DNA of 64,000 bases from an uncultured Propionivibrio sp. GTDB lineage: Bacteria; Pseudomonadota; Gammaproteobacteria; Burkholderiales; Rhodocyclaceae. Of this stretch, positions 34,107-45,704 are shown in pieces (position 1 is the first letter of the stretch; every line of letters starts with the position of its first letter). Location: NCBI RefSeq assembly GCF_963666255.1, contig NZ_OY762655.1:124001-188000 (forward strand), in the 5' to 3' direction. The position numbers and the translations under genes were made by a program. The notes beneath the pieces were generated by a model. That model was not told the DNA's origin, made no database searches, and worked only from the letters and a program-made list of their open reading frames with translations.

Positions 34107-36023
34107 TTAAGCCGTGCCACTTCGCGCGGCGACTTCGTTCTGAAGTCGCCCGATCAGCGCCTCGAGCGTCATCTGCCCAAGATCCTGACCGCCGCGTGTA
34201 CGCACGGCAACCATGTTTGCTGCCATTTCCTTGTCACCGATGACAAGCTGATACGGCAGTTTGTTCAAGCTATGTTCTCGTATTTTATAGGTAATTTTCT
34301 CGTTGCGCAAATCCGCTTCGGTTCTGAAACCTGCTTCACGTAGCGTTTTTGCAACATTTTCCGCGTATTGCGCCTGGTTTTCCGAGATGTTCAGGACTAC
34401 CGCCTGCGTCGGCGCCAGCCAGAGCGGCAGCGCGCCGGACCAGTTCTCAATGAGGATGCCGATGAAGCGTTCAAGCGAGCCGAGAATGGCGCGGTGCAGC
34501 ATGACGGGGGTATGGCGGGCGTTGTCCTCGCCGACGTATTCGGCGCCCAAGCGTTGCGGCATCGAGAAATCGACCTGGATCGTTCCGCACTGCCAGGAGC
34601 GTCCGATCGCATCCTTGATATGGAATTCGATCTTCGGGCCATAGAAAGCACCTTCGCCGGGGAGTTCTTCCCACGCGAGTCCGGAAGACTTCAGCGCTTC
34701 GCGCAGCCCGTCTTCGGCCTTGTCCCAGACGTCATCCGCGCCGACGCGCTTTTCCGGGCGCAGGGCCAACTTGACTGTGATGTCATTGAAGCCAAAATCG
34801 GCATAAACCTTGCGGACCAGCGCGTTGAAAGCGGTGACTTCCGACTGGATCTGGTCTTCGGTACAGAAAATGTGGCCGTCGTCCTGCGTGAAGCCGCGCA
34901 CCCGCATGATGCCGTGCAGCGCACCGGAGGGTTCGTTGCGGTGGCATGAGCCGAATTCGCCATAGCGCAGTGGCAGGTCGCGGTAGCTGCGCAGGCCGGT
35001 GTTGAAGATCTGGACATGGCCCGGACAGTTCATCGGCTTGATCGCGTAGTCGCGCTTTTCCGATTCCGTCGTGAACATGTTGTCCTTGTAGTTTGCCCAG
35101 TGGCCGGATTTTTCCCAGAGCGTGCGGTCAAGGATCTGCGGGCACTTCACTTCGAGGTAGCCGTTGTCCTGATAGACGCGGCGCATGTACTGCTCGATCT
35201 GCTGCCACATCGCCCAGCCCTTCGGGTGCCAGAACACCATGCCAGGGGCTTCGTCCTGCAGGTGGAAGAGGTCGAGGTGGCGGCCGAGCTTGCGGTGGTC
35301 GCGCTTTTCCGCTTCCTCGAGCATCGTCAGGTAGGCTTCCTGGTCTTCCTTCTTTGCCCAGGCAGTGCCGTAGATGCGCTGCAGTTGTTCGTTGCGGTGG
35401 TCGCCGCGCCAGTAGGCGCCGGCGACTTTCATCAGTTTGAAGACCTTGAGCTTGGCGGTCGACGGGACGTGCGGGCCGCGGCACAGATCGACGAAATCGC
35501 CTTCGCGGTACAGCGAAACGTCTTCGCCGGCGGGAATCGCGGCGATCAGTTCGGCTTTGTAATGTTCGCCAATCGATTTGAAGAATGCGGTGGCGTCATC
35601 GCGTTTCCAGACTTCGCGCGTGACCGGCAGGTCGCGCTTGGCGAGTTCTGCCATGCGCTTTTCGATGGCCAGAAGGTCTTCCGGTGTGAACGGGCGCTTG
35701 TAGGCGAAGTCGTAGTAGAAGCCGTTTTCGACGACCGGTCCGATCGTCACCTGGGCGTCAGGAAAGAGTTCCTTCACCGCATAGGCCAGCAAGTGCGCCG
35801 TCGAGTGCCGGATGATGTCGAGGCCTTCTTCGCTCTTGTCGGTGATGATCGCGACGTTGGTGTCGGTGTCGATGCGGTGGGAAGTGTCGACCAGCTTTCC
35901 GTCGACCTTGCCGGCGAGGGCGGCTTTGGCCAGGCCGGTGCCTATGCTTTGTGCGATTTCGGCAATCGTCACCGATTGCGCATATTCCCGTTGCGAACCA
36001 TCAGGCAGTGTAATGACCGGCAT
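34107..36023 (-). CDS. thrS: Threonyl-tRNA synthetase
   Basis: A 638-residue class II synthetase: N-terminal TGS domain ([16 protein letters not shown]), editing domain with [18 protein letters not shown], catalytic core ([19 protein letters not shown], motif 2) and C-terminal anticodon-binding domain. Zn ligands include the Cys of MNCPGH. It begins just 19 nt after a terminator-like hairpin that follows tRNA-Val, so it is probably transcribed from the tRNA promoter by read-through or from a promoter inside the tRNA. Confidence 0.97.
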
Positions 36024-36077: not shown

Positions 36078-36153
36078 TGGTAGGCGCGATTGGACTCGAA
36101 CCAACGACCCCCACCATGTCAAGGTGGTGCTCTAACCAGCTGAGCTACGCGCC
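36078..36153 (-). tRNA. tRNA-Val (anticodon GAC)
   Basis: A complete 76-nt cloverleaf: acceptor GGCGCGT, D-arm GCTC..GAGC, anticodon stem CCACC/GGTGG with loop TTGACAT (anticodon GAC), T-loop TTCGAGT and encoded ACCA. It is driven by the strong promoter at 36195-36222. Confidence 0.96.
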
Positions 36154-36194
36154 TTCTGTGTCGCCGAGCTGCTTGCGACGTCGAAGAAGCGCGC

Positions 36195-36222: not shown

Positions 36223-36679
36223 CGCTTGTTGCGCGTTTTTTGTGTTTGCGCGCGGAAATGCGTTTGTCTTGGCTGGCAATTCAATTGTCTTTTCGACATT
36301 GAGACATGCTCAAGGCGTAACCGACGTGTGTTGGGCTGGAAAGGGCTCTTGTTCCGTTATTGCACAATATGATTTCGTATATTGAATTTTGAAATTATGA
36401 AAGTCGCGTTTTCATTTTGGAAAAAAATGCGCCTAATTAGTGCGTAAGTGATTAAATTTTGTATCGTGATATTTTCGACATTGGTTGGTATGTTCTTTTC
36501 TGGAATAAACATCTGCCGAATTGTCGTTTGTGGTTTGCCGTTCTTGCTTCGAAAATCGTTTTCGGGTCTATGATGGCAGGGCGGTTGTGCTTCACGGGCT
36601 GATGCTGTGGTAATACATTAGGAAATGGGTCGATTGACTGTTTTTCAGGCTTAGGCCGATGTGTTCTCAGGGGGACGTG
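36223..36679. other. AT-rich intergenic region upstream of the hydrogenase operon
   Basis: With the tRNA promoter this makes a 526-bp gap. It is markedly AT-richer than its surroundings from about 36236 to 36660 and presumably contains the hydrogenase operon promoter and regulator sites. I looked for FNR-type TTGAT-N4-ATCAA and NtrC-type elements and saw none. No reading frame is credible. Confidence 0.5.
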
Positions 36680-38689
36680 GTGAGTACTTCTATATATGGC
36701 ATTTGGGATGGGAAGGTGCACGATTTCCGAAACTCACCGCAGGGCACGCCGCCCCCGGTTCTCGAAGGTTTGGAAACTTTTGCGCCGCATAACCCGACGA
36801 AGGCGTTCATCGCTGACCGGGGATTCCTGGTGTTCGATCGCGAAACCAGTCTGGTCGAAGCTTTTCGCGCCTATATGGCACAGGCGGCGAAAGAGTCCTG
36901 CGGGCGCTGTACGCCGTGTCGGGTCGGTACCCAGCGGATGCGCGACCTGCTGCGTGAAGTTGCCGCCAATCAGGCCGATCCGGGCGTACTCGACGACATT
37001 GCCGAGTTGGCGCGCCAGGTGACCGACACCTCGCTCTGCGGTATGGGCCAGTCCTGTGCGCGCAGCCTGCTTGATGCAATCGAGCATTTTCGCGAAGAAT
37101 TCAAACCGCTGACGCCGGCTCAGGCGGTCTTTCAACACAGTTTCGTCTATACGACGGCGCCCTGTGTCGAGGCCTGTCCGTCGAAAATCGATGTGCCCAA
37201 GTATATTGACGGGGTCAAGGGCGGCAAGTTCGACTATGCGCTTGGGGTGATTCTCGACAAGTATCCGATGGCGGCCACCTGCGGACGTGTCTGCGTGCGT
37301 TTCTGCGAATCGGCGTGCCGCCGCCAGGAGGCGGAGGGCCCGGTCGGCATCCGTATGCTGAAGCGTTATGCGGCGGACCAGGCGATTCTCAATAATCGCC
37401 TGCATTTCCAGCCGAGTCCGGTGCAACATGACAAGCGCGTCGCCATCATTGGCGCCGGGCCGGCCGGCATCACCTGTGCGTATAAACTGCTGCTCGGCGG
37501 CATCAAGGTCGACGTGTTCGATGCGCAGCGCGCGGCCGGCGGCATGGCCTCGGTCGGCATTCCCAGCTACCGCCTGCCCAAGGACGTGCTCAAGGCCGAG
37601 AGCGAGGACATCATCCGCCAGTTGGGCGGAAACTTCTTCTACAGCAAGGTCCTCGGTGAGAACTTCACTGTCGATGAACTGCTTGGCAAAGGCTACGATG
37701 CGGTGTTCCTCGCCTACGGGGCCAGTCAGGGGACGCGCTTCGGTATCAAGAACGAGTATCCGGGATTGAACCGCTACATCACTGGCGTCGATTTCCTGCT
37801 CAAGGTCCATCAGCGCGTCGAGCATGACGTGCCGTTCGAGGTCAAAGGCGATGTCGTTGTCGTCGGTGGCGGCAACGTCGCCATGGACTGTGTGCGCTCG
37901 GCCTTGCGCCTGGGGGCCAAGTCGGTCCATCTCGTCTATCGGCGGACCGAAGAGGATATGCCGGCAGAGCGCGAGGAGGTGATCGCCGCGCAGCATGAGG
38001 GCGTCATCTTCCACTTCCTGACAACGCCTACTGGCCTGATGGTCGAAAACAATACCGTGACCGCGCTGGAAATGGTCGAGATGCAGACCAGGGGGCGCGA
38101 CGAGAAAGGACGCTGGAATATAGAGCCGGTTCCCGATTCGATGTATACGATGTCCTGCGATCTCGTCATCGCGGCGATCGGCCAGCAGGTCGAGCGCAAC
38201 GTGGTGAAGCCCGGCGAGGGTATCGAACTCGATCGCTGGAACTGCATCGTCGTCAATCCCGATACGCTCGAGACGACGCGCAAGGGGGTGTTCGCCGGCG
38301 GCGACTGTGTGCTCGGTCCCTTGACCCTGGTGCACGCGCTGGATCAGGGCGAACGGGCGGCGGCGAGCATTCGCGATTTCCTGCTGAGCGGCGATGTTTA
38401 TGTACGCCCCGAACGGAGAATCCAGAATCTGCTGGCGAAAAACAAGCTGCTGGCCGACGAATGCCTCGACGTCCAACCGCCGCACAAGGACCGCGCGGTC
38501 ATGCCGGAGCTCGATGCGACCGAGCGCGTCAAGGGGTTTGATGAGGTTGACCAGGTCATTTCCAAACAGAGTGCCTACGAGGAAGCGAGTCGGTGTTTGC
38601 GGTGTTACCGGCTCTATTCGGTAGTGACCGAGAAGCATTTGCCTCGCGAACCGTCGATTTCCATTAACGAAACCGTCTGCGCGGAGTGA
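36680..38689 (+). CDS. NuoF/GltD-like Fe-S flavoprotein, hydrogenase partner subunit
   Basis: A 669-residue fusion. Residues about 50-145 are the C-terminal [4Fe-4S] part of NuoF/HydB (ESCGRCTPCRVGTQRM with Cys 74, 77, 80, and Cys120 in SLCGMGQSC), without the NuoF FMN/NADH domain. From about 155 it is a GltD/NfnB-type subunit: Cys 162, 166, 201, 205, 209 and 213 for two clusters, FAD motif GAGPAG (258-263), and pyridine-nucleotide motif GGGNVA (396-401) with RRTEEDMPAE. It presumably exchanges electrons between NAD(P)H and the [FeFe] hydrogenase encoded 4 bp downstream. The start is GTG 36680 (AGGGGG upstream) or ATG 36659. Confidence 0.85.
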   Translation: MSTSIYGIWDGKVHDFRNSPQGTPPPVLEGLETFAPHNPTKAFIADRGFLVFDRETSLVEAFRAYMAQAAKESCGRCTPCRVGTQRMRDLLREVAANQADPGVLDDIAELARQVTDTSLCGMGQSCARSLLDAIEHFREEFKPLTPAQAVFQHSFVYTTAPCVEACPSKIDVPKYIDGVKGGKFDYALGVILDKYPMAATCGRVCVRFCESACRRQEAEGPVGIRMLKRYAADQAILNNRLHFQPSPVQHDKRVAIIGAGPAGITCAYKLLLGGIKVDVFDAQRAAGGMASVGIPSYRLPKDVLKAESEDIIRQLGGNFFYSKVLGENFTVDELLGKGYDAVFLAYGASQGTRFGIKNEYPGLNRYITGVDFLLKVHQRVEHDVPFEVKGDVVVVGGGNVAMDCVRSALRLGAKSVHLVYRRTEEDMPAEREEVIAAQHEGVIFHFLTTPTGLMVENNTVTALEMVEMQTRGRDEKGRWNIEPVPDSMYTMSCDLVIAAIGQQVERNVVKPGEGIELDRWNCIVVNPDTLETTRKGVFAGGDCVLGPLTLVHALDQGERAAASIRDFLLSGDVYVRPERRIQNLLAKNKLLADECLDVQPPHKDRAVMPELDATERVKGFDEVDQVISKQSAYEEASRCLRCYRLYSVVTEKHLPREPSISINETVCAE

Positions 38690-38693
38690 TCGA

Positions 38694-40493
38694 ATGAAAG
38701 CCTTTATCAATGGAAGAGAAGTCGCTTTCGAGGCCAATGAGACCATCCTCGATGTGGCGCGACGCAACGACATTTACATTCCGACGCTGTGCGAACTGAA
38801 TGACATTGACCACGCCCCGGGGACTTGCCGGGTCTGTCTGGTCGAGGTCGAGGCGGACGACGATACGGAACTCAAGCACCTGACAGCTTGTGATACTGCG
38901 ATGGGCGAAGGCTGGAAAGTCCGGACGCGCACGCCGAAGGTGCAGGAAATGCGCCAGCTCCAGATGGAAATGATCATGGCCGATCACCATCAGGACTGCG
39001 CCTCTTGCCCGCGGACCGGCAATTGCGAGTTGCTGCCGACAGCCAACGCCGTTGGCCTGAAGCAGGTGCGTTTCCACTATACCGAGGGGTGGGAGAACCT
39101 CGAACCGGACCACGGCAAGCAGCCGATCGTCTATGACCGCAGCCGCTGCATCCGCTGCCAGCGTTGCGTCGCCGTCTGCCGCAAGGTGCAGAACGTCGAT
39201 GCGCTCGAACTGACCGGTTGGGGCAATACCGCGGGCATACGGCTGAAAGGCGGCGCGGTCGATGTGTCGCCGTGTGTGAACTGTGGTCAGTGCGTGATGG
39301 TCTGCCCGACCGGCGCGCTGGCCGAACGCGACCAGACGCAGGACGTGCTCGATTATCTGGCCGATCCCGATATCGTGACCGTCTTCCAGACCGCGCCGGC
39401 CATCCGTGTCGGCTTCGGCGAGGAATTTGGCCTGCCGCCGGGGACCAACGTCGAAGGACAGATCATCGCGGCGATGCGCAAGATGGGTGCGGACATCATT
39501 CTCGACACCAACTTCGCTGCCGACGTCGTCATCATGGAAGAGGGCACGGAACTGCTCGGCAAGCTCGCCGAGAAGAAACGCCCGGTGTTCACCTCCTGCT
39601 GTCCGGCCTGGATCAACTTTGCCGAAAAACACTATCCCGATGTTCTTCCGCTGCTGTCGAGCACGCGTTCGCCGCAGCAGGTGATGGGCAAGGTGATCAA
39701 GACGTATCTGGCCGAAAAGCGCGGCATCGATCCGGCCAAGATGCGCGTCATCTCGATCATGCCGTGCACGGCGAAGAAGGGCGAGGCGGCGCGCGGCGAG
39801 CTGGCGACACACGGCGTGCCCGATGTCGATGTCGTGCTGACCATGCGCGAATTCGCACGGCTCCTGCGGCGCGAGGGAATCGATCTCAAACAGCTGGAAC
39901 CGTCTTTCTATGACGATCCGTTCATGAGCGAGTACTCCGGGGCCGGCGCGATCTTCGGGACGACCGGCGGCGTCATGGAAGCCGCCGTGCGGACGATGTA
40001 TTACGTCGTCAATGGCAAGGAGCTCGAACACATTGAAGTGTCGCAGTTGCGCGGCTTCGAGAACGTCCGTTCGGCCAACGTCAATCTCGGCGGGCAGTAC
40101 GGCGAGATCAAGGTGGCGATGTGTCACGGCCTCAAGGGAACGCGCGAGTTGGTCGAGGCGGTGCTGAGCGGCAAGGCTGATTTTGATTTCATCGAGATCA
40201 TGGCCTGTCCGGGCGGCTGCGTCGATGGCGGCGGAACGCTGCGGTCGAAGAAGGCGTATATTCCATATGCAATGAAGCGCCGCGAGACGATCTTCAACAT
40301 CGACCGCAAGACCAAGGTGCGGCAGTCGCACAACAACAGCCAGGTCAAGCGGCTGTATGCCGAGTATCTCGAGGCGCCGCATTCGGAGAAAGCGCATCAC
40401 ATGCTGCACACGAAGTACACACCTCGCCTCTGTGGCCTCGATGCCGATATCGATGCCGCCTGGAGCGAACTCAGCAGACAAGGCAGGAGTTGA
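38694..40493 (+). CDS. hydA: [FeFe] hydrogenase catalytic subunit HydA
   Basis: A 599-residue cytoplasmic iron-only hydrogenase. N-terminal [2Fe-2S] ferredoxin domain (TCRVCLVEVE), His-Cys3 cluster (HHQDCASCPRTGNC), two [4Fe-4S] clusters (CIRCQRCVAVC 152-162 and CVNCGQCVMVC 194-204), then the H-domain. H-cluster motifs: L1 TSCCPAW (300-306; Cys302 proton relay, Cys303), L2 MPCTAKK (Cys358), L3 ACPGGC (Cys505, Cys509). A C-terminal small-subunit-like domain follows (about 535-585). All H-cluster ligands are present, and there is no Tat signal. By partner type it fits the glutamate-synthase-linked class (HydDB group A2), an inference. Confidence 0.96.
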   Translation: MKAFINGREVAFEANETILDVARRNDIYIPTLCELNDIDHAPGTCRVCLVEVEADDDTELKHLTACDTAMGEGWKVRTRTPKVQEMRQLQMEMIMADHHQDCASCPRTGNCELLPTANAVGLKQVRFHYTEGWENLEPDHGKQPIVYDRSRCIRCQRCVAVCRKVQNVDALELTGWGNTAGIRLKGGAVDVSPCVNCGQCVMVCPTGALAERDQTQDVLDYLADPDIVTVFQTAPAIRVGFGEEFGLPPGTNVEGQIIAAMRKMGADIILDTNFAADVVIMEEGTELLGKLAEKKRPVFTSCCPAWINFAEKHYPDVLPLLSSTRSPQQVMGKVIKTYLAEKRGIDPAKMRVISIMPCTAKKGEAARGELATHGVPDVDVVLTMREFARLLRREGIDLKQLEPSFYDDPFMSEYSGAGAIFGTTGGVMEAAVRTMYYVVNGKELEHIEVSQLRGFENVRSANVNLGGQYGEIKVAMCHGLKGTRELVEAVLSGKADFDFIEIMACPGGCVDGGGTLRSKKAYIPYAMKRRETIFNIDRKTKVRQSHNNSQVKRLYAEYLEAPHSEKAHHMLHTKYTPRLCGLDADIDAAWSELSRQGRS

Positions 40494-40494
40494 T

Positions 40495-41904
40495 ATGAAG
40501 GGGTTCCCGGCTCGGGATTGGTTGGTGGCAAGTGAAGTCGGGAATCTGCTTCAAACTGCCAAGTGCGACGAAGGGAAGATTCGCGAGGTGCTGGCAAAGG
40601 CCCGCGAACTCAAGGGGCTCGATGCTTCCGATGTTGCGGCGCTATGCCAGATCGGTTCGCCCGATCTGGCGGAGGCCTTGTTCGATACGGCGCGAACGGT
40701 CAAGGAACAGATTTATGGCCATCGCATGGTCCTGTTCGCGCCGCTGTATATTTCCAACGTTTGCGGTAACGATTGCACCTACTGCGCCTTCCGGTCGACC
40801 AACAAGGGGCTGGCGCGGACGGCGCTCGATATGGACGGCATCCGCCGCGAGACGCTCGAACTGGTGCGCCAGGGGCACAAGCGCCTGTTGATGGTGGCCG
40901 GCGAGGGCTATTCGGCCGCCAATGGCGGGTTCAACTATGTGCTTGATGCGATTCGTGCCGTTTATGACGTGACCGAGAAACACGGCCACATCCGCCGGCT
41001 CAACGTCAATCTGGCACCCTTGACGGTCGACGAGTTCAAGCTGCTCAAGGACGCCTCGATCGGCACCTACCAGCTCTTCCAGGAAACCTATCACCGCGAG
41101 ACGTATGCTGCGGTGCATCTGTCCGGCAAGAAGCGCGATTTCGACTGGCGCGTGACCGCCTTCGACCGGGCCATGCAGGCCGGGATCGACGACGTCGGCA
41201 TGGGCGTGCTGTTCGGCCTGCACGATTGGCGTTTCGAGATCCTCAGCATGATGCAGCACATCCAGCATCTCGAAGATGTCTTCGGCGTCGGCTGTCATAC
41301 GATCAGCGTGCCGCGCATGGAACCGGCCGACGGTTCCGATCTTTCGATGGCGCCGCCGGCGGCGGTCAGCGATGCCGATTTCAAGAAGATCATCGCCATC
41401 CTGCGCCTTGCCGTTCCCTATACCGGCATCATCCTGTCGACGCGCGAGTCGACGGAAATCCGACGCGAGTGTTATGCGCTTGGTGTGTCGCAGATTTCGG
41501 CCGGTAGCCGTACCAATCCGGGAGGGTACAGCGAGGGCGAGGATGCGAATGCGCATGCGGCCGGGCAGTTTCAGCTCGGCGACCATCGTTCGCTGGAAGA
41601 GGTTATCGCCGACCTGGCAGAATCGGGTTTTATCCCGTCGTTCTGTACGGCTTGCTATCGGCTCGGGCGCACCGGCCAGGATTTCATGGACCTTGCCAAG
41701 CCGGGACTCATCAAGCTGAAATGCGATCCGAATGCCGTGACGACCTTTCAGGAATATTTGATCGATTACGCGAAAGAAGAGACGCGCTGTGCCGGTGAGG
41801 CAGCGATCGACTGCGAACTCGACAAGATGGGGACGAAAGCGCGACGCAATGCCGAGAAGATGCTGTCGCACATCAAGGCCGGCAAGCGGGACGTTTTCTG
41901 CTGA
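40495..41904 (+). CDS. hydG: [FeFe] hydrogenase maturase HydG (radical-SAM tyrosine lyase)
   Basis: A 469-residue radical SAM enzyme that cleaves tyrosine to supply CO and CN for the diiron site. SAM cluster motif CGNDCTYC (Cys 90, 94, 97). The C-terminal auxiliary cluster has CTACYRLGRTG with C-x2-C-x22-C spacing exactly as in HydG, distinguishing it from ThiH. ATG 40495 follows AGGAG (40485-40489) and lies 1 bp after hydA. Confidence 0.96.
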   Translation: MKGFPARDWLVASEVGNLLQTAKCDEGKIREVLAKARELKGLDASDVAALCQIGSPDLAEALFDTARTVKEQIYGHRMVLFAPLYISNVCGNDCTYCAFRSTNKGLARTALDMDGIRRETLELVRQGHKRLLMVAGEGYSAANGGFNYVLDAIRAVYDVTEKHGHIRRLNVNLAPLTVDEFKLLKDASIGTYQLFQETYHRETYAAVHLSGKKRDFDWRVTAFDRAMQAGIDDVGMGVLFGLHDWRFEILSMMQHIQHLEDVFGVGCHTISVPRMEPADGSDLSMAPPAAVSDADFKKIIAILRLAVPYTGIILSTRESTEIRRECYALGVSQISAGSRTNPGGYSEGEDANAHAAGQFQLGDHRSLEEVIADLAESGFIPSFCTACYRLGRTGQDFMDLAKPGLIKLKCDPNAVTTFQEYLIDYAKEETRCAGEAAIDCELDKMGTKARRNAEKMLSHIKAGKRDVFC

Positions 41905-41920
41905 GAACAGGGGGGCGAGC

Positions 41921-43327
41921 ATGCGGACGGAAACCGATTCGCTGGGGCCGTTCGAACTGCCTCAGGATGCGCTGTACGGCATTCATACGGCCCGGGCGCG
42001 CGAGAATTTTTGTCTGAGCGGACAGCCTTGTCATCCGGGGCTGATCCGTGCCGTCGCGCTCGTTAAACTCGCCTGCGCCCGCACCAATGCGGCGCTCGGC
42101 TATCTCGATGCCGAAGTGGCGCAGGCGATTGCCCAGGCCGCGAACGAACTGGCTGACGGCCAACACCGCGAGGCGGTGATCGTCGACGCGCTGCAGGGCG
42201 GCGCCGGCACGTCGCTGAACATGAACGTCAACGAGGTGATCGCCAACCGCGCCGAGGAACTGCTGGGCGGACGGCGCGGCACCTACGCCCGCGTGCATCC
42301 GCTGCATCACGTGAATCTGCACCAGTCGACCAATGACGTCTTTCCGACGGCATTGAAGATTGCGGCGATCGACGGACTGAAGCGGCTGGAGCCGGCAATC
42401 GCGGCCTTGCAGACGGCCTTCCAGTCGAAGGAAGGCGAGTTCGCCGCGATCCTCAAGGTTGGCCGCACGCAGTTGCAGGATGCCTGCCCGATGACGCTCG
42501 GCGCCGAGTGTTCGGCCTGGGCCGAAGCCTTCGGCCGCGACCGTTGGCGCGTGTTCAAGTGCGAGGAACGCATCCGTGTGGTCAATCTCGGCGGCACGGC
42601 AATCGGCACCGGACTGACGGCGCCGCGCGACTACATCTTCCGGGCGACCGAGACGCTGCGCGAGGTGACGCGAATGAATCTCGCCCGCGCCGAGAATCTC
42701 GTCGATGCGACGCAGAATGCCGATGCGTTCGTCGAGGTCTCGGGCATACTCAAGGCGCATGCCGTCAATCTCTTCAAGATTTCTTCCGACCTGCGCCTGC
42801 TGGCGTCCGGGCCCCATGCCGGCTTCGGCGAACTGCGCCTGCCGGCGATGCAGGTCGGATCGAGCGTCATGCCGGGCAAAGTCAATCCGGTGATTTGCGA
42901 GGCCGTCGGGCAGGCGGCGCTGCAGGTGATCGCGCAGGATTCGGCGGTGACCGCCGCCGCGCAGTCCGGGCAGCTCGAACTCAATGCATTTTTGCCGCTC
43001 GTGGCGCATGCCTTGCTCGGCAACCTGAGCCTGCTCGAACGCGCCAACACGCTGTTCAGCGAGCGTTGTGTCGTCGGCATGACGGCCGATGCGGCTCGAT
43101 GCGGCGAGTTGTTAGAACACTCGCATGCGCAGGTGACGGCGCTGGTGCCGGCGCTGGGCTACGATCTTGCTGCTGATGTCGCCAAGGAAGCGCAGCGTTC
43201 GGGTCAGACCATCCGTGCCGTTGTCCTTGCCCGCGGCCTGCTCGGTGAGCCGGTGCTCGATCGTCTGCTTTCGGTCGATGCGATGACGGCGCTGGGCTAT
43301 CCGCCGAATCAGAAACTGAAGGATTGA
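41921..43327 (+). CDS. aspA: Aspartate ammonia-lyase-like enzyme of the hydrogenase operon
   Basis: A 468-residue fumarase/aspartase superfamily protein. GTSLNMNVNEVIANRA (96-111) and the catalytic flexible loop GSSVMPGKVNP (313-323) are intact. Aspartase converts L-aspartate to fumarate and ammonium. It is embedded between hydG and hydF (16 and 2 bp gaps), an arrangement known from other hyd operons, where local ammonium for the azadithiolate bridge of the H-cluster has been proposed. Fumarase activity cannot be excluded by eye. Confidence 0.88.
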   Translation: MRTETDSLGPFELPQDALYGIHTARARENFCLSGQPCHPGLIRAVALVKLACARTNAALGYLDAEVAQAIAQAANELADGQHREAVIVDALQGGAGTSLNMNVNEVIANRAEELLGGRRGTYARVHPLHHVNLHQSTNDVFPTALKIAAIDGLKRLEPAIAALQTAFQSKEGEFAAILKVGRTQLQDACPMTLGAECSAWAEAFGRDRWRVFKCEERIRVVNLGGTAIGTGLTAPRDYIFRATETLREVTRMNLARAENLVDATQNADAFVEVSGILKAHAVNLFKISSDLRLLASGPHAGFGELRLPAMQVGSSVMPGKVNPVICEAVGQAALQVIAQDSAVTAAAQSGQLELNAFLPLVAHALLGNLSLLERANTLFSERCVVGMTADAARCGELLEHSHAQVTALVPALGYDLAADVAKEAQRSGQTIRAVVLARGLLGEPVLDRLLSVDAMTALGYPPNQKLKD

Positions 43328-43329
43328 AC

Positions 43330-44571
43330 ATGCTGGAAACCCCCAAGGGACTGCGTTTGCATATCGGTATTTTTGGCCGTCGCAACAGCGGCAAGTCGAC
43401 GCTGATGAACGCGCTGATCGGCCAATCGGTGTCGATCGTTTCCGACCAGCCCGGCACGACGACCGACCCGGTCGAGAAGACCTTCGAGCTGGCACCGCTC
43501 GGGCCCGTCGTCTTCATCGATACGGCCGGGCTCGATGACGAAGGCGATCTCGGGGCATTGCGTATCGAGAAGACGCGCCAGGTGCTGGAACGCGTCGATG
43601 TCGCGCTGATTGTAGTCGATGCCGGTGGAATGACCGCGACCGAACGCGATTTGATGGCGACGCTACGCGCCGCCAATACGCCCTTTGCCGTCGTCTTCAA
43701 CAAGAGCGATTTGGGCGAGCCGCCGGCCGAACAACTGGCGCAACTCGCCGCCGATGCGATCGAGACCGTTTCGATCTCGGCGGCCACCGGGCTCGGCATC
43801 GACCGGGTCAAGGAGGCGCTGTTCCGGCAAGCGCCGGAGAGTAGCATCGAGGACCCGCGCCTGGTCGGCGATCTCATCGGTCCCGGCGATCTCGTCGTGC
43901 TCGTCGTGCCGATCGATCTCGGCGCCCCGAAAGGTCGGCTGATCCTGCCGCAGGTTCAGACGATGCGCGACATTCTCGACAGCGATGCCGTCGGCCTGAT
44001 GGTCAAGGAGCGCGAATTGGCGGCGGCGCTGGCGCGCATGAGCGACAAGCCACGGCTCGTCGTCTGCGATTCGCAGGTCGTAAATAAGGTCTCGGCCGAT
44101 ACGCCGCCCGACATCCGCATGACGACGTTCTCGATCCTGATGGCGCGCTTCAAGGGCGACATGATCGGCCTGGCCGAAGGCGCCGGCGCCATCTCGCGCC
44201 TCAAGCCGGGCGACAAGGTGCTGATTGCCGAGGCCTGTTCGCACCACGCGCTCGCCGATGACATAGGTCGCGTCAAAATTCCGCGCTGGTTACGTCAATA
44301 TGCCGGCGGCAACCTCGACATCGAGGTGCGGTCTGGCAAGGATTTCCCCGAGGACCTGAGTTCGTATGCGCTGATCGTGCAATGCGGTGGCTGCACGGTG
44401 ACGCGCAAGCAGATCCTCGTGCGGCAATATCGCGCGGCGCAACAGGGCGTGCCGATGACCAATTACGGCATGGCGATCTCGGTTTCGCAGGGCGTCATCG
44501 AACGCGCGCTTGAGTGTTTTCCTGCCGCTCAGGATGCGTATCGCCGCGGCATGGCCGGGAACGCCCGATGA
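43330..44571 (+). CDS. hydF: [FeFe] hydrogenase maturation GTPase HydF
   Basis: A 413-residue scaffold GTPase on which the [2Fe] subcluster is assembled. G1 GRRNSGKS (16-23), G3 DTAG (64-67), G4 NKSD (124-127). The C-terminal cluster domain has C-x-H (Cys303, His305) and CGGC (Cys352, Cys355). The usual HCxxC is QCxxC here (Gln351), so one candidate fourth ligand is replaced. ATG 43330 with AAGGA upstream; it overlaps hydE by 4 nt. Confidence 0.95.
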   Translation: MLETPKGLRLHIGIFGRRNSGKSTLMNALIGQSVSIVSDQPGTTTDPVEKTFELAPLGPVVFIDTAGLDDEGDLGALRIEKTRQVLERVDVALIVVDAGGMTATERDLMATLRAANTPFAVVFNKSDLGEPPAEQLAQLAADAIETVSISAATGLGIDRVKEALFRQAPESSIEDPRLVGDLIGPGDLVVLVVPIDLGAPKGRLILPQVQTMRDILDSDAVGLMVKERELAAALARMSDKPRLVVCDSQVVNKVSADTPPDIRMTTFSILMARFKGDMIGLAEGAGAISRLKPGDKVLIAEACSHHALADDIGRVKIPRWLRQYAGGNLDIEVRSGKDFPEDLSSYALIVQCGGCTVTRKQILVRQYRAAQQGVPMTNYGMAISVSQGVIERALECFPAAQDAYRRGMAGNAR

Positions 44572-45704
44572 CGACGGCAACGCTCCAGTTCGTGCGCAGG
44601 ACGGTGGCGACCGCGCCCGGTGTCGAGGCGCAGGCGATGGCGGCGCGGCTGCAGGCGGGGGTTCCCGATCGTGACACCTTGCGCCGCATCCTGGCGACGG
44701 ACATCGCCGACGAAGTCGAAGTAATCCGGCAGGCGGCCGAACGGGCCTTGCTCACGCATTGCGGCGATACGGTGCGGCTGCGCGGGCTGATCGAGTTTTC
44801 CAATCGCTGTACGCTCGATTGCTATTACTGTGGCATCCGGCGCAGCAACCGGGCGCCGACGCGCTATACGCTCGCCCTCGACGAGATCGTCGAGACGGCG
44901 CGCTGGTGTGGCGAACAGGGCTATGGTTCGGTCGTGCTGCAGTCGGGTGAGCGGCGCGATGACAAGTTCACGGCTTTCGTCGCCGAGGCGGTGCGCGCGA
45001 TCAAGGCAGCGACGCGTTCTGACGCGCTGCGCGACGGCGTCGGCATTACGCTGTGTGTGGGCGAGCAATCGCCGGAAACCTATGCCGAATGGTTCGAGGC
45101 CGGTGCCCACCGCTATCTCCTGCGCATGGAGACGTCGTCACCGCGATTGTTCGCGGCGCTGCATCCGGCTGAACAGCGTTACGCCTCGCGCGTCGATTGT
45201 CTGAAAACACTGAAGGCCATCGGTTACCGCGTCGGAACGGGTGTCATGATCGGACTGCCGGAGCAGACGATCGACGATCTGGTCGATGATCTTTTCTTCT
45301 TCCGTGACATCGGCGCCGACATGATCGGCATGGGGCCGTACATCCCGCACGAGCAGACGCCGATGCACGCGGCATCGGTGCGCGATGTGCCGGCGCGCAT
45401 GACGCTTGCGTTGCGCATGATTGCCGCGACGCGCCTGTTGTTGCCGTCGATCAACATCGCTGCGACGACGGCCTTGCAGACGCTGGCGCCGGACGGACGC
45501 GAGCAGGGCTTGCGCCATGGTGCCAACGTCATCATGCCGCAGGCGACGCCGCTGCATGTGCGGCGCGAATACACGCTTTATGACGGAAAACCCTGTCTCG
45601 ACGATAGTGCCGGACAATGTGCAGCCTGTCTGGAAGGGCGGATTAACTCTGTCGGGCGGCGTATTCTGCGCGACCAGTGGGGCGACGCGGCGCGGCGTCG
45701 CTGA
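44568..45704 (+). CDS. hydE: [FeFe] hydrogenase maturase HydE (radical SAM)
   Basis: A 378-residue radical SAM/BATS-domain protein acting on the HydG product during H-cluster assembly. SAM cluster motif CTLDCYYC (Cys 81, 85, 88). Family stretches SVVLQSGER and LRMETSSPRLF are present. ATG overlaps the hydF stop by 4 nt. It completes the set HydE, HydF, HydG needed for active HydA, and is the last gene of the hydrogenase operon; the amidase gene begins 39 bp later. Confidence 0.95.
   Translation: MTTATLQFVRRTVATAPGVEAQAMAARLQAGVPDRDTLRRILATDIADEVEVIRQAAERALLTHCGDTVRLRGLIEFSNRCTLDCYYCGIRRSNRAPTRYTLALDEIVETARWCGEQGYGSVVLQSGERRDDKFTAFVAEAVRAIKAATRSDALRDGVGITLCVGEQSPETYAEWFEAGAHRYLLRMETSSPRLFAALHPAEQRYASRVDCLKTLKAIGYRVGTGVMIGLPEQTIDDLVDDLFFFRDIGADMIGMGPYIPHEQTPMHAASVRDVPARMTLALRMIAATRLLLPSINIAATTALQTLAPDGREQGLRHGANVIMPQATPLHVRREYTLYDGKPCLDDSAGQCAACLEGRINSVGRRILRDQWGDAARRR

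Follow-up and report, generated by a model that had tools for sequence, protein, structure and literature searches.

What partners an [FeFe]-hydrogenase when the usual HydB and HydC subunits are missing from its operon, and in which direction would such an enzyme run? The question is raised by a 64,000-nucleotide stretch of DNA (the window; contig NZ_OY762655.1, positions 124,001 to 188,000, assembly GCF_963666255.1) from an uncultured Propionivibrio sp. Inspection of open reading frames and motifs found six intact genes on its plus strand, at 36680–45704, in the order fusion–hydA–hydG–aspA–hydF–hydE. We consider it likely that the products of the first two form a soluble, non-bifurcating [FeFe]-hydrogenase that depends on NADPH, and that the other four genes serve to mature its catalytic subunit, HydA; the complex, its NADPH specificity, its direction and its physiology are what we infer here.

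The genes are closely packed, with 4 bp between fusion and hydA, 1 bp between hydA and hydG, 16 bp between hydG and aspA, 2 bp between aspA and hydF, and a 4-bp overlap of hydF and hydE. An initial annotation of the window had described these six tightly spaced genes, in this order, in a betaproteobacterial host, and both points hold. The source genome (completeness 98.33%) totals 3,993,109 bases on 4 contigs. The best named match to the fusion is that of Propionivibrio dicarboxylicus DSM 5885 (97% identical), an anaerobe that ferments dicarboxylates, and because the locus shares 91.3% nucleotide identity with that strain over 18.7 kb, the window probably comes from a sister species.

An SfrB-like fusion upstream of HydA

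The first gene (36680–38689, plus strand) encodes 669 amino acids from a GTG codon at 36680, with AGGGGG just 5' of it; an in-frame ATG at 36659 is an alternative start and would give 676 amino acids. Pfam assigned three domains to the product: PF10589 (NADH_4Fe-4S, the NuoF-type [4Fe-4S] domain), PF14691 (Fer4_20) and PF07992 (Pyr_redox_2, binding flavin adenine dinucleotide (FAD) and NAD(P)H). The flavin mononucleotide (FMN)/NADH domain PF01512 was not found in it by Pfam. The fusion thus retains just the [4Fe-4S] domain of NuoF, and the label 'NuoF/GltD fusion', with the NuoF site that it implied, overstates the NuoF part. With PF01512 missing, one flavin (FAD) and one nucleotide site are expected per chain; the nucleotide would bind the GltD/NfnL-type domain, and NADPH is favoured.

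In an AlphaFold2 model of the fusion (mean predicted local distance difference test score 87.4), the fold search ranked StnC (8oh5_C) and the NfnABC chains 9bov_A, 9n5u_A and 9n5v_A best, followed by NADP(H)-bound NfnL (5jca_L; E 7.2e-38). Sequence and predicted fold together place the fusion nearest, among solved structures, to StnC (8oh5), the NfnABC A subunits (9bov, 9n5u) and NfnL/NfnI (4ylf, 5jca), with glutamate synthase small subunits ranking after them. The short C-terminal stretch of the fusion that ends in RCLRC lines up with the RCLQC stretch that NfnL has at its N terminus, so that ligands at the start of NfnL stand at the end of the fusion, as they do in StnC and NfnABC. Pfam and the fold search together give a NuoF iron–sulfur domain, Fer4_20 and a GltD-type FAD/NADPH domain, the architecture that we take to define SfrB and presume, for the NuoF part, to be shared by SfrB of Geobacter, the named representative of such subunits. 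By description rather than by sequence, the fusion is similar to the NADPH subunits of the SfrB type in Geobacter and Moorella.

The fusion carries a YRR motif (its two arginines are residues 421–422 of the 669-residue form) that aligns with YRR of NADP(H)-bound 5jca_L (NfnI). All 17 aligned fusions have it unchanged, along with the NuoF-type cysteines C74, C77, C80 and C120 and the GltD-type cysteines C162, C166, C205, C209, C213, C639 and C642; C201 is nearly invariant. (Locus L047, with runs of N, L044, with one stop in its stretch, and L037 and L042 were omitted from the alignment; L063 was omitted from a second alignment only.) In Thermococcus Fdh3B, modelled on NfnI, two adjacent arginines are said to stabilize the 2'-phosphate of NADP(H), and the enzyme strongly prefers NADP+ (PMC8965080, in the part concerned). 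We assume these arginines to correspond to the YRR pair by analogy, Fdh3B itself standing outside our alignment. Taken together, homology favours NADPH as the nucleotide of the fusion, short of proof. The initial annotation had expected a soluble H2:NAD(P)+ enzyme; that expectation stands, and the choice between NAD and NADP, which it had left open, now tilts towards NADPH.

HydA and its maturation proteins

HydA (38694–40493, plus strand; 599 amino acids) has intact H-cluster motifs TSCCPAW (L1), MPCTAKKGE (L2) and MACPGGCVDGGG (L3), together with ligand motifs for four accessory clusters: an N-terminal [2Fe-2S], a His-ligated [4Fe-4S] and two [4Fe-4S] clusters. It exceeds the cut-off of the subfamily model TIGR02512 (499 bits against 406) and is, by motifs and this model, a group A [FeFe]-hydrogenase of the M3 type. 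Its best-scoring model was that for NADH-dependent group A6 enzymes (698 bits), compared with 517 bits for the clostridial ferredoxin hydrogenase model, both scores being below their cut-offs. None of the Pfam domains of HydA is sensory. The outcome that the initial annotation had named as going against it, a sensory or ferredoxin-only enzyme, found no support from Pfam domains and NCBIfam model scores and was rejected on these grounds, with the A6 and ferredoxin models alike below cut-off.

The three maturases are likewise intact. HydG (40495–41904, plus strand; 469 amino acids), a radical S-adenosylmethionine (SAM) maturase, has CX3CX2C and CX2CX22C motifs; HydE (44568–45704, plus strand; 378 amino acids), also a radical SAM maturase, has CX3CX2C; and HydF (43330–44571, plus strand; 413 amino acids), the GTPase scaffold maturase, has a P-loop and CxH...QCxxC. 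All three exceed their NCBIfam equivalog cut-offs (HydG TIGR03955, HydF TIGR03918, HydE TIGR03956). The motifs are those that we take to define HydA, HydG, HydE, HydF and AspA. The annotated set of H-cluster ligands and three maturases is therefore complete, with function itself predicted.

Between hydG and hydF lies aspA (41921–43327, plus strand), whose 468-residue product contains GSSVMPGKVNP. With NF008909, the subfamily model for aspartate ammonia-lyase, AspA clears the cut-off (621 bits against 510), but with the equivalog TIGR00839 it does not (502 against 681), and fumarase models likewise fall below their cut-offs, so we name it aspartate ammonia-lyase at subfamily level. The initial annotation had listed the gene correctly and passed it over, although an explanation is published: aspA is known beside hydF, in vitro AspA and aspartate provide the nitrogen for the dithiomethylamine ligand, and H-protein takes part in making this bridging ligand (PMC11736057, in the passages concerned). 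It is for this last reason that two GCV_H matches in the source genome matter. The gene need not sit in the operon, since it is missing from three otherwise complete Propionivibrio clusters (L035, L036 and L038; here and below, L and G numbers are our labels for loci and genomes). The three genomes with aspA-less clusters (G324, G390 and G301) have other lyase-family matches, at 43–49% identity, elsewhere.

On the proposed reading, a hydride from NADPH would be taken up by the FAD in the GltD/NfnL-type domain, and electrons would pass the [4Fe-4S] clusters of that domain and then the N-terminal NuoF-type (N3-like) [4Fe-4S] domain of the same chain. From there they would cross to HydA and travel along its NuoG-like [2Fe-2S]/[4Fe-4S] chain to the H-cluster, the site at which protons would be reduced, reversibly, to H2. 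HydG, HydE and HydF would build the 2Fe subsite, while AspA may supply ammonium for the bridging ligand and fumarate for the fermentation of the cell.

Conservation of the pair and HydA phylogeny

HydA was searched for in samples of 395 genomes of the family (E ≤ 1e-60), 274 of the class and 398 of the phylum (both E ≤ 1e-80), the source genome being counted. It was present in 20 of the 395 family genomes (15 of them in the genus, in which 5 further genomes were listed without HydA), in 5 of the 274 and in 4 of the 398, in keeping with the annotated view that [FeFe]-hydrogenases are uncommon here. No other genome among the class and phylum matches was marked as belonging to the same order or family, and neither HydA nor the fusion had a match of at least 50% identity outside the source genome in these two surveys.

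Where HydA was at least 60% identical, the fusion lay directly upstream of hydA in all 17 family genomes, including our own and G245 (L047), in which both genes are cut by runs of N. (Apparent insertions in L047 proved to be such runs between repeated short stretches, that is, assembly gaps, along with one unrelated tandem repeat.) The order hydG–aspA–hydF–hydE is kept in 8 of the 17 (the window, L032, L033, L034, L037, L039, L045 and L047), and besides the three clusters lacking aspA, six (L040–L044 and L046) have no full maturase gene within the stretch fetched, the contig of L042 ending just past hydA. Two more distant, HydB-linked family operons (L050 and L052) also keep hydG–aspA–hydF–hydE. 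HydF was detected (E ≤ 1e-60) in 15 of the 20 HydA-positive family genomes compared with none of the 5 HydA-negative genomes of the genus.

In a HydA tree of 36 rows, the window and 15 family relatives grouped in a single, well-supported Rhodocyclaceae-type clade (100/100), whose stem measures 0.93 changes per column. L047 was dropped because of its N runs, 6 of 15 matched plasmid records were used (L063–L068), and the genomes of L026–L029, present already as L032, L036, L035 and L038, entered once. The backbone is without resolution and has long branches (L067, L062, L053 and L066), and the clade is not placed among the HydDB classes. The L1 motif TSC[C/S]P has Cys in 16 of 16 rows of the window's clade; Ser stands there in 7 of 10 HydB-linked rows and in L048. 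At the last position of the stretch MEEGTELLGK, this clade has Lys in 6 of 16 rows (the window included), His in 3 and Arg in 7; the residue is Arg in CpI and in every other tree row where the pattern matched, and we take the CpI arginine to be part of the proton path.

Outside the family, a fusion-type gene lies directly upstream of a hydA in Collinsella aerofaciens, from a plasmid collection in which this was the sole record among 5 (E ≤ 1e-60) to cover at least 80% of the fusion. Its HydA (L063) groups with L049 (100/100), in a clade other than the window's. SfrB-type partners therefore accompany two or more HydA lineages that stand well apart, from a tree that does not give the number of recruitments. 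Another family of the phylum also encodes a fusion with this architecture (L054:5876–7846, minus strand; G395), at 35% identity (36% as a survey match); no HydA match lay within the 15 kb fetched around it, and by eye its neighbours look like metal ABC transporter genes.

Several points weigh against an NADPH-dependent HydA–fusion enzyme. HydF went undetected in 5 of the 20 HydA-positive genomes (G195, G235, G290, G365 and G382; E ≤ 1e-60), meaning either that maturases are missing from the assemblies or have diverged, or that HydA is unmatured there. Three of these genomes, G195, G235 and G365 (L042, L044 and L043), form one HydA clade, and their H-cluster motifs are intact. The tree does not join the window's clade to the SfrB-linked Collinsella HydA. 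Contact between fusion and HydA is drawn from adjacency and module homology, and the NADPH claim from homology, with YRR being common to other GltD relatives and so supporting NADPH without proving it. In the openly licensed literature we found neither a published assay of any HydA–SfrB pair nor a publication joining Propionivibrio, FeFe and hydrogenase.

Metabolic setting and direction

The source genome has one HydA (PF02906), and no [NiFe] large subunit was found in it with PF00374, for which the control was positive in 5 of 14 genomes; HydA is thus the only hydrogenase detected. An NfnA-like gene (NF004862 over cut-off) adjoins an NfnB-like gene (TIGR01316 over cut-off), and a pyruvate oxidoreductase (POR) cluster with a GltD-type gene lies away from the operon, at about 737–742 kb of contig C2. 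The beta subunit of the latter is 89% identical to that of L029, one of two other Propionivibrio genomes in which genes for POR alpha, beta and gamma and a GltD-type subunit stand directly upstream of the hydrogenase operon (L028:60–4131 and L029:5273–9761). These NfnAB-like and POR–GltD genes, and the position of the latter upstream of the operon in L028 and L029, make a route from pyruvate or ferredoxin through NADPH to H2 plausible. The most likely role of the enzyme, to judge by gene content, would be that of an electron valve, venting excess reductant as NADPH from NfnAB and from a 2-oxoacid oxidoreductase linked to GltD-type subunits.

The same enzyme could run backwards, oxidizing H2 in syntrophic or H2-rich settings and yielding NADPH for biosynthesis. 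Hydrogenases can work either way, the suggestion of HydDB for group A2 is that H2 oxidation feeds NAD reduction (PMC5037454), and the authors of the Pelobacter study introduced below predict both directions (PMC3543383), each in the passages concerned. We nevertheless think this direction unlikely as the principal one: the POR–GltD and NfnAB-like genes suggest reductant disposal, although they are compatible with NADPH supply, and an equilibrium H2 pressure of about 3 kPa at −370 mV makes evolution feasible at low ambient H2. The calculated values are about 3.3 kPa at −370 mV versus 67 Pa at −320 mV, the latter based on standard NAD values. For the former, −370 mV is the potential given for NADPH in anaerobes in the relevant part of PMC6288185. 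On the physiological role, fermentative sink or H2 oxidation, the initial annotation was right to take no side.

Alternative nucleotides and electron paths

NADH rather than NADPH might be the electron donor, as for Syntrophus HydAB. Non-bifurcating NADH-dependent [FeFe]-hydrogenases exist (PMC7311640, in part), and group A6, the best-scoring model for HydA, consists of NADH-dependent enzymes; but its score falls under the cut-off (698 against 765 bits), the beta subunit of the known enzymes is of the NuoF type and has FMN, its PF01512 domain being absent from the fusion, and the fusions conserve YRR. On balance NADH appears improbable.

A slimmer prospect is that the pair bifurcates through its NfnL-type FAD, confurcating NADPH and reduced ferredoxin to H2 (or the reverse) in place of the FMN site of HydB. 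If true, FAD bifurcation in the fusion would mean that electron-bifurcating [FeFe]-hydrogenases evolved by a second route. An intermediate on such a route could be a set in another Propionivibrio genome, in which HydB is joined to a GltD module of this type. This second hydrogenase set (L048:7515–12920, minus strand; G345) encodes a HydC-like subunit, a 1045-residue HydB–GltD/NfnL chain and HydA. The HydB part of the chain, with its FMN/NADH domain, is closest to HydB of bifurcating hydrogenases, and the chain would hold two flavin/nucleotide sites on one polypeptide. None of the plasmid records covered at least 80% of it, and 131 matched in part. One of the partial matches (57.5%, to the HydB part) is NZ_CP061968.1:3971–5566, a 27-kb record labelled as a Klebsiella pneumoniae plasmid; the value is close to that of gut anaerobes, and the record is possibly a misassigned contig.

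The bifurcating HydABC type (group A3) shares with the present operon an M3-type HydA with a NuoG-like cluster chain, but was rejected, as Pfam found neither HydB (with its FMN/NADH domain) nor HydC (thioredoxin-like [2Fe-2S]) in the operon, which bears out the annotated lack of that pair. Elsewhere in the genome, a search with the fusion as query (PF01512 was not searched genome-wide) gave one NuoF-type iron–sulfur match, near genes that by eye are NuoE- and NuoD-like.

That the fusion is, or serves, a glutamate synthase, with H2 feeding ammonium assimilation directly as in the 'glutamate synthase-linked' idea of HydDB, is scarcely credible and was rejected for the subunit itself: GltD homology and the aspartate ammonia-lyase in the operon are in its favour, but the genome has its own large-subunit gene (gltB; C2:1472811–1473983) and GltD-like gene (C2:1475118–1476494), and the extra NuoF iron–sulfur domain suits a NuoG-type partner such as HydA.

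Flanking sequences

The operon is preceded by divergent thrS (34107–36023, named from sequence) and by tRNA-Val (gac) on the minus strand (36078–36154), and is followed by an amidase gene on its own strand. P. dicarboxylicus DSM 5885 has the same operon, likewise flanked by thrS and amidase. Upstream, the best match to what we take to be the FNR consensus agreed at 7 of 10 positions (6 to 8 in 14 relatives), with no site in common; the two promoter-like sites that a scan picked up are both on the minus strand, and the count of terminator-like sites was five against 1.4 in shuffles, neither scan giving anything usable for the operon.

Relation to known systems

An arrangement of this kind, whose redox partner the initial annotation had presented as atypical, is already described from genomes. 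In Pelobacter carbinolicus, a HydA paired with an SfrB-like protein (HndD1, Pcar_2502, with Pcar_2503) was predicted in 2012 to be an NADPH hydrogenase, with Nfn proposed to supply the NADPH (PMC3543383). As there described, HydA adjoins the NADPH subunit, as in the window, and aspA lies between hydG and hydF, but these three genes belong to the hndD2 cluster and not to HndD1. HydDB defines group A2, 'glutamate synthase-linked (putative)', of 'undetermined role', by a GltD-type protein immediately downstream of HydA that lacks a NuoF domain (PMC5037454, in its description of the group). Our operon shares the group A HydA with a GltD-domain neighbour, but its fusion lies immediately upstream, with HydG downstream, and so departs from the A2 rule in its position; as to the NuoF domain, it has PF10589 without PF01512 (by Pfam, whereas HydDB uses the Conserved Domain Database). 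Desulfitobacterium hafniense ACL20074 joins SfrB-like and HydA-like modules, with presumed NADP(H) function, in a single polypeptide, from a strain described as being without maturation enzymes (PMC9888536, in part). Collinsella provides the one pair of the same architecture from a named organism placed in our tree, in a different HydA clade. With the Pelobacter, HydDB A2, Desulfitobacterium and Collinsella cases preceding it, the arrangement is not new and, as far as the literature that we found goes, is biochemically uncharacterized. GltD-linked (A2) [FeFe]-hydrogenases are also reported from rumen and gut bacteria, in passages that describe their function as unresolved or call for work on it (PMC6776011, PMC12578642).

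Among other relatives, a GltD-type NADPH subunit serves a larger redox partner in Geobacter SfrAB and in the NADPH-dependent formate dehydrogenase of Moorella (SfrB2/SfrA2/FdhF3; PMC13040438, PMC7483475, in part), whose beta subunit SfrB2 is 76 kDa (PMC13040438); there catalysis falls to a formate dehydrogenase-type protein and not to an H-cluster domain. Of the solved structures, the Stn and NfnABC bifurcating transhydrogenases (8oh5, 9bov, 9n5u) come nearest in fold to the GltD part, its C-terminal two-cysteine end included, but they add a full NuoF-type subunit (Stn also a NuoE-type one) and have no H-cluster.

What the present locus offers is an SfrB-linked enzyme in a complete, self-contained operon that encodes the only hydrogenase detected in its genome, with the same operon in a named strain, P. 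dicarboxylicus DSM 5885. This makes the GltD/SfrB-linked kind testable, for cofactor and direction in this lineage at least. Coupling to NADPH would permit ferredoxin-independent H2 release at roughly kPa pressures, against tens of Pa for NADH.

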